Shown one piece after another: positions 20,906 to 45,780 of a stretch of 64,000 bases of DNA. The notes under the pieces are model-generated. The model had not been told where the DNA came from. It worked only from the letters and a program-made list of their open reading frames with translations, and did not search any database. Each line of letters opens with the position of its first letter. Position 1 is the stretch's first letter. The stretch is taken from positions 3,547,433-3,611,432 of the forward strand of contig NZ_JAHSTY010000001.1 of the NCBI RefSeq assembly GCF_019145355.1, written 5' to 3'. Origin of the DNA: Pseudomonas azadiae (lineage in GTDB: Bacteria > Pseudomonadota > Gammaproteobacteria > Pseudomonadales > Pseudomonadaceae). A program made the position numbers and the translations under genes.

Positions 20906-21175
20906 TTAGGCCGCTTGCGGACTTAGCCTGCGGCCAATCACATCCATCAAATCGCACCCATCCCGCAACGGGATGGCCAGCAGTTGTGCGAAGTCGTGGA
21001 GTACGACGGCGTCGCTGCTGAGTTCTTCTCGAAAGGCGATGTTTTCCAGTAACTGAGTCACCGCGCGAATGCGGTAGGCAGCGGCGTCGAGAAGGACGTC
21101 GAGTGGGGCTTGGGTATCGATGGTTAAAGCGGGGATGGTGCAGTCGTGGCCGGTTAGGGGCATGTAGCGATTCAT
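20906..21175 (-). CDS. Small DUF3077/DUF6124-like protein with structured leader
   Basis: The product has 89 residues and no signal or membrane segment. It resembles the small helical proteins that occur in many copies in pseudomonads: a hydrophobic N-terminal strand (PALTID), then LDVLLDAAAYRIRAVTQLLENI and a C-terminal helix with VVLHDFAQLLAIPL. The function is unknown. The ATG at 21175 has its Shine-Dalgarno (CGGAG) in a small hairpin. The preceding 130 bases form a leader shared with the paralogue at 45428. Confidence 0.72.
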   Translation of the reverse strand: MNRYMPLTGHDCTIPALTIDTQAPLDVLLDAAAYRIRAVTQLLENIAFREELSSDAVVLHDFAQLLAIPLRDGCDLMDVIGRRLSPQAA

Positions 21176-21312
21176 AAGTGAAACTCCGTAGTTCAAAAGG
21201 AGCTCCCACTCGATTGTCGCCAAACAATAGGGTGGCAGCTGTACGCAGGTTGGCGAACCGGAACCACGGAACCGGCAGACCCGAAGGTCTCCCGCGCACA
21301 GCTACCATAGAC
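21176..21312 (-). promoter_or_regulatory. Structured 5' leader (copy A) of a DUF3077/DUF6124-like gene
   Basis: Read on the minus strand, the leader has: stem P1 CTGTGCGC (21301-21294) with GCGTACAG (21246-21239); hairpin P2 AGACC-UUCG-GGTCT (21290-21277); a CCGG/CCGG element (21275-21258); stem P4 AGCTGCCAC/GTGGGAGCT (21240-21232 and 21209-21201) enclosing hairpin ATTGT/ACAAT (21228-21213); and hairpin P5 AACT/AGTT (21193-21182) that holds the Shine-Dalgarno. The same order and spacing recur at 45287-45427 with compensatory changes. This is a likely cis-acting RNA of unknown ligand. Confidence 0.7.
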
Positions 21313-21328: not shown

Positions 21329-21359
21329 AAAAATGCCTGCCAACGAAGCAGACATTTTT
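21329..21359. terminator. Terminator-like hairpin upstream of leader A
   Basis: AAAAATG-C-CTGC (21329-21340) pairs with GCAG-A-CATTTTT (21348-21359) around a 7-base loop, with T runs on both strands. It lies just 5' of leader A and could insulate it, or it may be a REP-like relic. Confidence 0.5.
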
Positions 21360-21495
21360 GAATGTGGTTTCAGGTCGCCAAACCTGATCGCCATGAGGGC
21401 GACGGCCGGACTATAAGCTTCATCATGGAAATCGTGCAAGGAGCAGGGCGGCTTGGTTACAACATTCCACCGCAGGTTTTGTGCAGGCAGGTTTT

Positions 21496-21540: not shown

Positions 21541-21583
21541 GGGGGCGGTGGCGACTCGGGATTGGGGGTACACAGGTCAAAAA

Positions 21584-21672
21584 TGTGGGAGCTGGCTTGC
21601 CTGCGAATGCGGTGGATCAGTCAGAGCAATATTGACTGACACTCCGCGTTCGCAGGCAAGCCAGCTCCCACA
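21584..21672. repeat. REP pair upstream of the end of the Hsp70-like gene
   Basis: Inverted arms TGTGGGAGCTGGCTTGCCTG and CAGGCAAGCCAGCTCCCACA have a spacer of about 45 bases. Confidence 0.85.
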
Positions 21673-21693
21673 TTGATTTATGGTGTCTGGAAG

Positions 21694-24186: not shown

Positions 24187-25887
24187 TTAGAACAGAAAAT
24201 AGCGCTGCGCCATCGGTAGTACATCCGCCGGCTCACACCACAGCAGCACGCCGTCGGCCTTGACCTGATAGGTTTGTGGGTCGACTTCAATGTCCGGCAG
24301 GTAGTCGTTGTGGATCAAGTCGGTTTTCTGCACGTCGCGGCAACCCTTGACCACGGCGATCTGCTTTTTCAAGCCCAGGGCCTCGGGCAGGCCGGCGTCC
24401 TGGGCGGCCTGGCTGATAAAGGTCAGGCTGGTGGCGTGCAGCGAGCTGCCGAAGCTGGCGAACATGGGGCGGTAGTGCACCGGTTGCGGGGTGGGAATCG
24501 ACGCGTTGGCGTCGCCCATCAGGCTTGAAGCAATCGCGCCGCCCTTGAGGATCAACGTAGGTTTGACGCCGAAGAAGGCCGGGCGCCACAGCACCAGGTC
24601 GGCCCATTTGCCGACTTCGATGGAGCCGACGATATGGCTGACGCCGTGGGTGATCGCCGGGTTAATGGTGTACTTGGCGATGTAGCGCTTGATGCGGAAA
24701 TTGTCGTTGCCCGCGCCGTCGCCGGGCAGGGCGCCGCGCTGGCGTTTCATCTTGTCGGCGGTTTGCCAGGTGCGCGTGATCACCTCGCCGACGCGGCCCA
24801 TGGCCTGGCTGTCGGAGCTGATCATCGAGAACGCGCCAAGGTCATGCAGGATGTCTTCGGCGGCGATGGTCTCGCGGCGGATACGGCTTTCAGCGAAGGC
24901 CACGTCTTCGGCGATGCTCGGGTCCAAATGGTGACAGACCATCAACATGTCGAGGTGTTCGTCGATGGTGTTGCGGGTGAACGGCCGCGTCGGGTTGGTC
25001 GAGCTGGGCAGCACATTGGGCAAGCCACAGGCCTTGATGATGTCCGGCGCATGGCCGCCACCGGCGCCTTCGGTGTGGTAGGTGTGAATGGTGCGGCCCT
25101 TGAGCGCGGCGAGGGTGGTTTCGACGAAGCCGGATTCGTTGAGGGTGTCGCTGTGGATCGCCACCTGCACGTCATATTCATCGGCAACGCTCAGGCAATT
25201 GTCGATGCTGGCCGGTGTGGTGCCCCAGTCCTCGTGCAGCTTCAAACCGATGGCGCCGGCCTTGACCTGTTCGATCAACGGCTCGGGCAAACTGGCGTTG
25301 CCCTTGCCAGTGAAACCGATGTTCATCGGGAACGAATCGCTGGCCTGGAGCATGCGCGCCAGGTGCCACGGGCCCGAGGTGCAGGTGGTGGCGTTGGTGC
25401 CGGTCGCCGGGCCGGTGCCACCGCCGATCATGGTGGTGACGCCGCTGGTCAGCGCTTCTTCGATCTGTTGCGGGCAGATGAAATGCACGTGGCTGTCGAT
25501 GCCGCCGGCGGTGAGGATCATGCCTTCGCCGGCGATCACTTCGGTGCTGGCGCCGATGGCCATGGTCACGCCGGGCTGGATGTCCGGGTTGCCGGCCTTG
25601 CCGATGGCGTGGATGCGGCCGTTCTTGAGGCCGACGTCGGCCTTGACGATGCCCCAATGGTCGATGATCAGCGCGTTGGTGATCAGGGTGTCGACCACTT
25701 CATGGGCGAGCAGTTGGCTCTGGCCCTGACCATCGCGGATGACCTTGCCGCCGCCGAACTTGACCTCTTCGCCATAGACGGTGAAGTCCTGTTCGACTTC
25801 CAGGAACAGCTCGGTGTCGGCCAGGCGGACCTTGTCACCGACGGTGGGGCCGTACATGTCGGCGTAGGCTTGGCGGCTGATTTTCAT
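24187..25887 (-). CDS. ureC: Urease alpha subunit
   Basis: The product has 566 residues, the normal length. Nickel ligands HVHF (near 134), the carbamylated lysine Lys216 (GLKLHEDWG) and the flap region [22 protein letters not shown] (near 317-338), with the catalytic His, are all present. It hydrolyses urea to ammonia and carbamate in the cytoplasm as (UreABC)3. It is the last gene of the urt-ure series and is split from ureB by a REP pair. Confidence 0.97.
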
Positions 25888-44334: not shown

Positions 44335-44622
44335 TCAGACCGCCGTGGCGTGAAGCTTGAGGCCCAGAGCTTTCATGACTTTCATGATAGTCGCGAATTC
44401 GGGATTGCCAGTGCTGGAGAGGGCTTTGTACAGACTTTCTCGTCCGAGGCCGGCGTCGCGGGCTATTTGGGTCATGCCTTGGGCGCGGGCGATATTGTTG
44501 AGCGCTGAGCGAATCAGCAATCCGTCACCGGAGTCTTCTTCGAAAGAAGCTTCGAGATACTCCGCCATGTCCTCAGGGGTCGTCAGATGCTCGGCTATGT
44601 CGAAATCTTTAAATTGAGTCAT
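44335..44622 (-). CDS. HigA-like antitoxin (addiction-module antidote)
   Basis: The product has 95 residues. After an N-terminal start with FDIAEHLTTPEDMAEYL, typical of COG3636 antidotes, the C-terminal half is a Xre-like helix-turn-helix (IARDAGLGRESLYKAL, with ALGLKLHA at the end). It should neutralise the toxin and repress the pair. It follows the toxin gene by 3 bases, which is the reversed order of higBA systems. Confidence 0.88.
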   Translation of the reverse strand: MTQFKDFDIAEHLTTPEDMAEYLEASFEEDSGDGLLIRSALNNIARAQGMTQIARDAGLGRESLYKALSSTGNPEFATIMKVMKALGLKLHATAV

Positions 44623-44625
44623 GGG

Positions 44626-44928
44626 TCACTCCTTTTTTTCAAATTCATCGGCAATTTCTTTAGCGCGCTCGATGTCGCGTTTTTGCGTTGATTTATCGCC
44701 ACCTATCAACAGTAGGTAAACCACTTCACCTATACGCTTGAAGTACACCCGGTATCCAGGGCCATAGTGGATGCGCATTTCGGATACGCCATTTCCGACG
44801 TTTTCGCAGTCTCCAAAATTGCCCATTCCTGCGTTATCCAATCTTGTCAGCACGCGTCCATGGGCGGGTTTACTGCGTAGCGAATAAAGCCATTCCTGAA
44901 ACTCATCAGATCTCTTGAAGTGAATCAT
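44626..44928 (-). CDS. RelE/ParE-superfamily toxin (HigB/Gp49-like)
   Basis: The product has 100 residues from ATG 44928. It contains the RelE-fold patterns FQEWLYSLR, RVLTRLDNAGMGNFGDCE, SEMRIHYGPGYRVYFKR and LLLIGGDKSTQKRDIERA. Such toxins are mRNA interferases or related. An in-frame ATG 17 codons upstream has no ribosome site. The quasi-palindrome at 44937-44952 covers the ribosome binding site, which suggests self-repression. Confidence 0.88.
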   Translation of the reverse strand: MIHFKRSDEFQEWLYSLRSKPAHGRVLTRLDNAGMGNFGDCENVGNGVSEMRIHYGPGYRVYFKRIGEVVYLLLIGGDKSTQKRDIERAKEIADEFEKKE

Positions 44929-44936
44929 CTCGGATC

Positions 44937-44952
44937 GTATTCCTTGGGATAC
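44937..44952. promoter_or_regulatory. Quasi-palindrome over the toxin ribosome site, possible operator
   Basis: GTATTCCTTGGGATAC has symmetric arms (12 of 16 positions) and contains the Shine-Dalgarno AAGGA on the minus strand. Toxin-antitoxin pairs usually bind such sites for self-control. Confidence 0.45.
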
Positions 44953-45286
44953 ATATTGGCAAGTTGTGACGCGCTGCAAAAGCAGCGCATCCCCATCGCG
45001 TGCGCCGGAGCAAAACCGCGAGAGGGGAGGTTAGGGCGGGGGCTTTTGGCTGAGCCAGCCAGCTTGTTCGGAAGTGTTTGTAGGGGGATTCGGCTTTCGG
45101 TGGTGAAGCCTGATAGGACTGGTTATCCGTATAAATAGAAATTTCCGACAAGTCTTTGAGGTTGTCCCTAGGACACTCAATCTCTAGTCTCCGTACACCG
45201 CTGCAAACTCAGCGGTCGGGCGTCGCGGCTCGTATTGATTAAGTACTGCCTCCTTTCAGTTGACGCTTTTTTATCGTCTACTGTGG
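44953..45286. other. Non-coding stretch before leader B
   Basis: About 330 bases between the divergent toxin gene and leader B hold no credible gene. Visible are a stem ACCGCTG/CAGCGGT at 45198-45217, a small quasi-palindrome near 45160-45172, and TTGACG at 45260-45265 as a possible -35 element for the leader. Confidence 0.45.
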
Positions 45287-45427
45287 GCGCTATGGTGGCT
45301 GTGCGCGGGATACCTTCGGGTATGCCGGCTTCCTTAATCTCCGGTCCGCGAACCTGCGCACAGCTGCCACCCCTCATCGCATCGCGGCGATTAGTTGGCA
45401 GCTCCACTTAGATTAAGGAAATCTACA
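45287..45427 (+). promoter_or_regulatory. Structured 5' leader (copy B) of a DUF3077/DUF6124-like gene
   Basis: The elements match copy A in order: P1 CTGTGCGC/GCGCACAG (45299-45306, 45356-45363); P2 ATACC-UUCG-GGTAT (45310-45323); CCGG/CCGG (45325-45344); P4 AGCTGCCA/TGGCAGCT (45362-45369, 45396-45403) around hairpin ATCGC/GCGAT (45376-45391); and P5 AGATT-AAGGA-AATCT (45410-45424), whose loop is the Shine-Dalgarno. The last base is next to the ATG at 45428. Paired positions differ from copy A by compensatory changes in P2, the inner hairpin of P4 and P5. Confidence 0.72.
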
Positions 45428-45679
45428 ATGATTAAACCCACCCCCAATCCCCCCATCCGGCTATTCACCGTAGCCGACGGATTCAGCACCGAAGACCTGC
45501 TGGTCAACCTCAGCGAAACACTCGCCTCGGCCAATGCGCTGAGTTGCGACCTGGCGTTTGATTTGGAAGGCCCGAAACGAGAGGAATTGCTCGGCGTTGC
45601 GCAGTTGATAGAGCTGGCGCAGTTGCTGGCTGATCGTGTGCAAGATGGCGTAGGACAGGCGACAGCAACAGCTGGATGA
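45428..45679 (+). CDS. Small DUF3077/DUF6124-like protein with structured leader
   Basis: The product has 83 residues with no signal or membrane segment. It has the family layout of a short strand (LFTVADGFSTEDLLVNL) followed by an amphipathic helix (SETLASANALSCDLAFDL) and a second helix (LLGVAQLIELAQLLADRV). The function is unknown; paralogues are numerous in pseudomonads. The Shine-Dalgarno AAGGA sits in the loop of a 5-base-pair stem ending 3 bases before the ATG. A REP pair follows the stop. Confidence 0.75.
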   Translation: MIKPTPNPPIRLFTVADGFSTEDLLVNLSETLASANALSCDLAFDLEGPKREELLGVAQLIELAQLLADRVQDGVGQATATAG

Positions 45680-45692
45680 CGCCGCTCTAAAA

Positions 45693-45780
45693 TGTGGGAG
45701 CGGGCTTGCTCGCGAATACGGTGTGTCAGGCGCCGGATATATAACTGATCCACCGCCTTCGCGAGCAAGCCCGCACACAT
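45693..45780. repeat. REP pair with one shortened arm
   Basis: The left arm is TGTGGGAGCGGGCTTGCTCG; the right arm CGAGCAAGCCCGCACACA lacks the usual TCC. It lies between two convergent genes. Confidence 0.75.

Follow-up and report, generated by a model that had tools for sequence, protein, structure and literature searches.

Antisense RNAs of the C4 family are cut from a longer transcript by RNase P to a length of about 77 bases and repress translation of a downstream gene. In phages P1 and P7 (immI operon, c4-icd-ant), C4 has the fold described below for Pseudomonas and the elements stand in the same order, a1-b1-C4-a2-b2-small gene; the annotated phage P1 record gives a1, b1, c4, a2, b2, icd, ant. 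C4 has been reported from Proteobacteria and phages (PMC2864571), with Pseudomonadales named among its hosts (PMC5320573). The latter source also describes the Group 1 sRNAs of Acinetobacter baumannii, a C4-like family that is likewise chromosomal and present in many copies, and in which the loop that specifies the target varies; the 21 members are reported there as sRNAs, and the passages on them give no adjoining target sites or cargo genes (PMC5320573). The IsrK/orf45-anrP system of the Salmonella prophage Gifsy-1 (RF01394) likewise has a terminated leader RNA and a read-through mRNA with a small ORF whose translation is controlled by base pairing, as we propose below, although the short IsrK acts there as an activator (PMC4825925). 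The CI RNA of phage P4, as cited in PMC4825925, is also processed from the transcript that it controls and has complementary sites up- and downstream, but it acts by transcription termination, and its likeness to C4 is one of description.

We analysed a 64,000-nucleotide stretch of Pseudomonas azadiae DNA (the window) that contains two leaders of this type, one in front of a gene for an 89-aa protein at 20906..21175 on the minus strand (the 21-kb unit) and the other in front of a gene for an 83-aa protein at 45428..45679 on the plus strand (the 45-kb unit). A sequence-only reading of the window had placed two leaders with the same elements in the same order at these positions, and all the elements that it named are present: the P2 arms are AGACC-UUCG-GGUCU at 21277-21290 (minus strand) and AUACC-UUCG-GGUAU at 45310-45323 (plus strand), and what it called the inner hairpin, located at 21213-21228 (minus strand) and 45376-45391 (plus strand), is the a2 target hairpin. 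That reading knew of no described element of this form. In the Rfam comparison, however, both leaders match C4 antisense RNA (RF01695), at 21228-21312 on the minus strand with 82.5 bits and at 45288-45374 on the plus strand with 82.7 bits, against a cut-off of 45, and the 45-kb copy also exceeds the cut-off of the c4-a1b1 family. The reading had named a match to a described RNA family as grounds for giving up its claim of novelty, and because of the RF01695 match a new RNA family is ruled out. Phage P1's own C4 scores 68.8 bits with RF01695, and its pairing with the sites annotated in P1 follows the same pattern. Both units score below the cut-off of 50 with IsrK (RF01394; 26 and 36.1 bits). 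Besides the score, both leaders have the P1-P2-P3 fold with covariation, and both have a1 and b1 upstream and a2 and b2 downstream of C4 in the phage P1 order, with b2 at the ribosome-binding site. The icd-ant operon is absent: in contrast to phage P1, the slot of icd behind C4 holds a small gene and there is no antirepressor among the neighbours tested. That operon, however, belongs to the P1/P7 system and does not define the C4 RNA family.

Each unit is laid out as follows, the site letters being those of the phage P1 record (a, the hairpin-side site; b, the site near the ribosome-binding site). The sequence-only reading had bounded the 21-kb element at 21176-21312, an extent that takes in C4 and its downstream sites, but the unit continues upstream, where a terminator-like hairpin, another hairpin with a target site and a -10-like box follow. 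By eye, this box is TATAGT at 21410..21415 (minus strand), with a possible -35 box TTGCAC at 21434-21439, and the promoter-like sequence of the 45-kb unit is TTGTCC-17 bases-TAGTCT at 45162..45190 (plus strand; -10-like box at 45185-45190); in each leader the -10-like box stands at the start of the c4-a1b1 (RF03163) region. This target region sits about 50 bases upstream of C4 in both units, at 45184-45236 (plus strand; 48.6 bits, over the cut-off of 46.7) and 21367-21416 (minus strand; 39.8 bits, below it). It includes the a1 hairpin of the 21-kb unit (21371..21386, minus strand), whose loop is complementary to the a' segment of C4; b1 of this unit, AACCAC at 21364..21369 (minus strand, placed by eye), is complementary to GUGGUU of the b' loop. 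In the 45-kb unit the two sites occupy 45184..45243 (plus strand; a1 hairpin 45217-45232, b1 45237-45243). A terminator-like hairpin with a U run lies between b1 and C4 in the 21-kb unit (21329..21356, minus strand); by a crude test such a hairpin precedes C4 in 19 of the 36 units of this genome, and the same test finds none in the 45-kb copy. Within C4 of the 21-kb unit (21228..21312, minus strand), P2 is followed by the b' loop of P3 at 21262-21271 and by a' at 21250-21256; in the 45-kb C4 (45288..45374, plus strand) the b' loop is at 45329-45340 and a' at 45346-45351. Downstream of C4, the loop UUUGGCGA of the a2 hairpin at 21213..21228 (minus strand) is complementary to a', and b2 at 21184..21193 (minus strand), at the ribosome-binding site, is complementary to the b' loop. 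The equivalents in the 45-kb unit are the a2 hairpin at 45376..45391 and b2 at 45410..45421, again at the ribosome-binding site and complementary to b' (both plus strand). This leader had earlier been labelled a cis-acting RNA; by its family, the RNA would act through antisense pairing with the sites on both of its sides and not only in cis, a mode of action that we ascribe to these copies by analogy.

The 6.1-Mb genome from which the window comes has 36 C4 matches, all over the RF01695 cut-off, of which the sequence-only reading had seen two; further copies in front of such genes, the check that it had proposed, turned out to be many. Its case for a structured RNA with compensatory changes before small unknown genes is borne out over the 36 copies: 608 of 612 cells are paired in P1, where the best of 1,000 shuffles reaches 603, and 168 of 170 in P2, where the best shuffle reaches 143. 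The P2 count covers 34 copies, as two C4s shorter than 85 bases were left out. In a second species (G005), which has 42 C4 matches, 39 of them over the cut-off, the corresponding counts for 30 copies are 504 of 510 for P1 (best shuffle, 499) and 147 of 150 for P2 (best shuffle, 119). In most units the a2 site is displayed, by eye, in the loop of a small hairpin whose stem changes. Within the genus, C4 was found in 138 of 149 sampled genomes, the window's own included (over the cut-off in 137), and was absent from 11; the per-genome counts in this sample are lower bounds, since no more than 27 candidates were scored in any genome, and 34 genomes reach that number in the table as we read it. In a sample of 145 genomes of the order, 20 have C4, namely the window's own and 19 of the 144 from outside the genus, with 1-6 copies each, and 14 control genomes gave no match. 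Judging by these samples, it is the genus that seems to be marked by a high number of copies. In G005, three units stand in a row about 850 bases apart (L064, L065 and G005:C1:3630531-3630617), which suggests spread by local duplication in that genome.

The genes behind these C4s are mostly members of two families of small proteins. There are 33 distinct DUF6124/DUF3077 genes in the genome (26 and 10 matches, three of them shared by both), and C4 precedes 29 of these, as judged by comparing coordinates by eye; one of the others (L039) has neither C4 nor target hairpin. The remaining seven of the 36 C4 units stand before four members of the family of the 21-kb gene (L002, L006, L011 and L015), before a second small family without a Pfam match (L014, the member tested, and L016) and before a Bro-N protein (L019). 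Both small genes had been described as DUF3077/DUF6124-like. This is correct for the gene at 45428, which matches DUF6124 (PF19619) with 85.6 bits against a cut-off of 27 and has a listed homologue, PFLU_0601, in P. fluorescens SBW25. For the gene at 20906-21175, by contrast, the searches found neither a Pfam family (E<=0.001) nor an NCBIfam model (E<=1), and the idea that the 89-aa protein is a distant DUF6124 was rejected by profile comparison (hhalign probability 0.9%, E 0.058). Relatives of the 89-aa protein are confined to Pseudomonas among the named matches listed, and a genome scan found 388, the best 80 of which are all Pseudomonas by title. When a covariance model built from the 36 C4s was applied to these best 80 of 388 relatives, 64 of the genes proved to be preceded by a C4 in the same orientation, at about 230 bases in one (L212) and within about 70 bases in the rest. 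The predicted structure of DUF6124 is a two-helix hairpin (pLDDT 84), for which Foldseek gave no match at E<=0.001 in the PDB and viral libraries; the top PDB matches (E 0.6 to 3), which include by name the immunity protein PA2703/Tsi2, we take to be at chance level for a helical hairpin. A sequence search of the PDB had a best E of 0.18. The structure predicted for the 89-aa protein is poor (pLDDT 63). Our guess is that the small proteins may be small helical regulators or adaptors.

Phage regulators follow C4 at some other loci. Among 20 non-genus C4 loci taken from a longer list, a Bro-N protein lies behind C4 in four (L080, the Bro-N match of which is just below the Pfam cut-off, L082, L085 and L090), 14 have another ORF of 53 to 220 aa and in two no ORF was found; in the P. 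aeruginosa phage vB_Pae_CF55b, C4 is followed by an 88-aa ORF and then a Phage_pRha protein. The presence of Bro-N/Rha-type phage regulators behind C4 fits an origin in phage antirepressor control, and the direction of change would have been from such control to small-gene units.

A phage P1 genome has one C4, whereas the window's genome has dozens of chromosomal copies, and their pairing codes have diverged. We compared the arms of each C4 with its own sites and with those of the other units, in the 36 units of the window's genome and in 30 of the 42 G005 matches. Because long loops bind everything by raw duplex energy, specificity was also scored by the longest-scoring complementary stretch without gaps. 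At a1, b1, a2 and b2 alike, in both genomes, own scores exceeded cross scores in comparison with every permutation (0 of 10,000 each), with z of 12.2 to 16.7 in the 36 units and 11.0 to 15.7 in the 30 G005 units. When the four sites were summed, the own partner was best or tied in both directions in 31 of 36 units and 26 of 30 (G005); for a2+b2 alone this was so in 28/36 and 26/30 and for a1+b1 alone in 20/36 and 17/30. Duplex energies likewise separated own from cross pairs (z -10.2 to -13.8 in the 36 units, -8.8 to -14.0 in the 30 G005 units) and ranked the own target first in 25/36 and 26/30 for a2+b2 and in 18/36 and 19/30 for a1+b1, but by raw duplex energy the own C4 was the best binder of its a2+b2 in only 13/36 and 21/30. 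Of eight control tests with reversed arms, four gave a z no further than 1.2 from zero and the other four gave -2.3, -2.7, -2.9 and -4.1, so that a small composition effect exists, well below the signal. Within a single genome there are 36 different b' loops and 20 different a' segments. In the family of the 21-kb gene, 20 of 23 loop groups, each represented by its first member, have UCGCCAA as a', and the 23 distinct b' loops match their own b1 (z 10.4) and own b2 (z 12.9; 0 of 10,000 permutations each), the own b site being best or tied in 14 to 16 of the 23. This covariation of b' loops with their sites inside one gene family separates code change from gene-family identity. A single step of the kind can be seen between unit L002 (=L112) and its relative L093 in genome G004, in which a b' base and the facing b1 base differ together.

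In our judgement each unit is probably a self-contained, phage-derived C4-type antisense lock of the temperate-phage immunity kind, insulated from the other units. Points that weigh against this reading are the patchy occurrence of the terminator-like hairpin, the ranking of C4s by raw duplex energy, the reversed-arm controls that departed from zero, the 11 genomes of the genus without C4 and the target hairpins that have no C4. For transcription, processing and silencing we infer the course of events from P1/P7 (PMC5320573), the notes in the P1 record and IsrK (PMC4825925). One transcript would start shortly before a1 and would either end at the terminator-like hairpin or continue through C4 into the small gene. 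C4 would be excised from this transcript and fold as P1, P2 and P3; its a' would pair with the loop of the a2 hairpin and its b' loop with the ribosome-binding-site element b2, which would keep the small gene from being translated, and pairing with a1 and b1 in the leader may feed back on the transcript. In Pseudomonas, the cassette would have been multiplied to dozens of copies, with the phage antirepressor mostly lost and a small gene standing in the place of icd; arms and sites would have diverged together, so that the units would not silence each other.

Roughly 10-24 bases after C4 there is a further strand, M, which is complementary to the 3' strand of P1, the closing helix of C4 (21201..21209 on the minus strand, with one internal mismatch, and 45396..45403 on the plus strand) and of which, to our knowledge, there is no description. 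In three sets, none of 200 shuffles reached the mean M score (19.1 vs a maximum of 14.7 in the 36 units, 17.8 vs 14.7 in the 30 G005 units and 20.2 vs 15.6 in the 20 non-genus loci), and M co-varies with P1-3' in the first and third of these (z 4.4 and 6.4, 0 of 5,000 permutations); phage P1 has a weaker match (score 16.5). Strand M suggests that the leader may have an alternative fold. It could even be that the leader is mainly a bistable mRNA switch in cis, in which P1-3' pairs either with its 5' partner (C4, off) or with M (on) and a short leader RNA or some other signal tips the balance, as reported for IsrK of Gifsy-1, which in its short form activates its own read-through mRNA (PMC4825925). 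We regard this as unlikely. The M fold is favoured by 4.4 kcal/mol in the 45-kb copy, but the C4 fold is favoured in most units, by 8.9 kcal/mol in the 21-kb copy: its median advantage is 5.5 kcal/mol in the 36 units, 7.0 in the 30 G005 units and 4.8 in the 20 non-genus loci, with the M fold winning in 6/36, 2/30 and 2/20, respectively. Moreover, own and cross scores for M are no different in the G005 set (z 1.2, 598 of 5,000 permutations), and a cis switch alone would leave the matched a and b codes unexplained.

Some target sites stand without a C4 of their own. By eye, 12 of the 16 C4-less relatives of the 21-kb gene (among the best 80 of 388) still have an a-type hairpin immediately ahead of the start codon, remnants of a unit are seen in L139, which lies at a contig end, and in L144, and L189 and L193 have neither hairpin nor remnant. 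The window's genome has four such C4-less target genes, namely L038 and L040, with RF03163 scores over the cut-off (62.2 and 51.7), L122, with a score below it (41.9), and L037, judged by eye. L122 has the same a code as the 21-kb unit, and so do two of three phage units read by eye. These retained hairpins and shared codes would be expected if C4 acted mainly in trans, on solo-target genes, on units with a common code or on incoming phages with matching sites; but the codes are unit-specific, and the b code of the solo targets has no clear match to a C4 that also fits their a code, which makes such a main role improbable in our view, beside that of the self-contained lock.

C4 being a phage element, and some units looking worn (no ORF was found for L003 and L025, and L029 has no clear a2 hairpin), the units might also be decaying phage remnants without present function. 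We give this very little credence: the helices have kept their pairing as the bases changed, the arms still fit their sites, none of the 36 DUF6124/DUF3077 matches of the genome has a stop codon inside it, and the neighbours tested are not phage genes. A prophage location was rejected on the same grounds, as none of ten neighbouring ORFs belongs to a phage family; two are without a Pfam family and eight have one (HSP70, DnaJ, AI-2E transporter, PCuAC, CbiJ and others), although a weak match to phage-derived Gp49 adjoins the 45-kb unit. A tblastn search with the 45-kb DUF6124 protein found no match in 72,556 plasmid records that would point to spread by plasmids and, among 50,697 phage records, a single one with 58.9% identity (E 2e-16), in a record that has prtR and hol. 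Ten DUF6124 loci were found in viral contigs, each with a C4 that exceeds the cut-off, but they may be host flanks because several of the genes lie near a contig end, and we do not count them as evidence of phage carriage. C4-like DNA occurs in 27 of the 50,697 phage records, 26 of which are Pseudomonas phages; the three units read by eye are L218, L219 and L220. In a P. fluorescens phage record (L091, EU982300.1), a DUF6124-like Orf1 lies at the end, next to prtR, with C4-like DNA adjoining.

The antisense-lock reading suggests that a phage immunity module has been multiplied into a chromosomal regulatory system. What is new here is the scale of C4 and its private codes, the C4 element itself and a multi-copy family in A. 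baumannii being already known; in titles and abstracts, with subscription journals mostly outside the search, we found no treatment of multi-copy C4 units or of DUF6124/DUF3077 control in Pseudomonas. For large small-protein families on which the literature searched has next to nothing (no paper on DUF6124 and one on DUF3077), the units suggest a form of control that can be tested directly. Tens of natural antisense-target pairs in one cytoplasm provide data on how RNA specificity diverges after duplication, and natural C4-target pairs are a possible source of orthogonal riboregulators. A bolder extension, which we put forward only tentatively and consider rather doubtful as a whole, would have dozens of insulated RNA locks genome-wide, one per small gene and derived from a phage immunity cassette, as possibly the largest natural orthogonal antisense set in one cell, with the solo targets as a trans layer and M flipping each mRNA between a locked and an open state. 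As C4 units are carried by Pseudomonas phages, and two of three that were read have the a code of the 21-kb unit, the set might also serve to detect or counter invading phages.

Several other features of the window were recorded. By eye, REP-like inverted repeats adjoin both units, at 21580-21676 and at about 45692-45780, the former with chance-level miRNA matches in the Rfam comparison. Beside the 45-kb unit, at 44335-44979 (minus strand), lies a putative toxin-antitoxin pair, consisting of a PF21716 antidote and a weak match, below the cut-off, to phage-derived Gp49. Finally, 5_ureB_sRNA (RF02514) matches at 25455-25741 (plus strand) with 109 bits, antisense inside the urease alpha gene at 24187-25887 (minus strand), where it may simply reflect conserved coding sequence.
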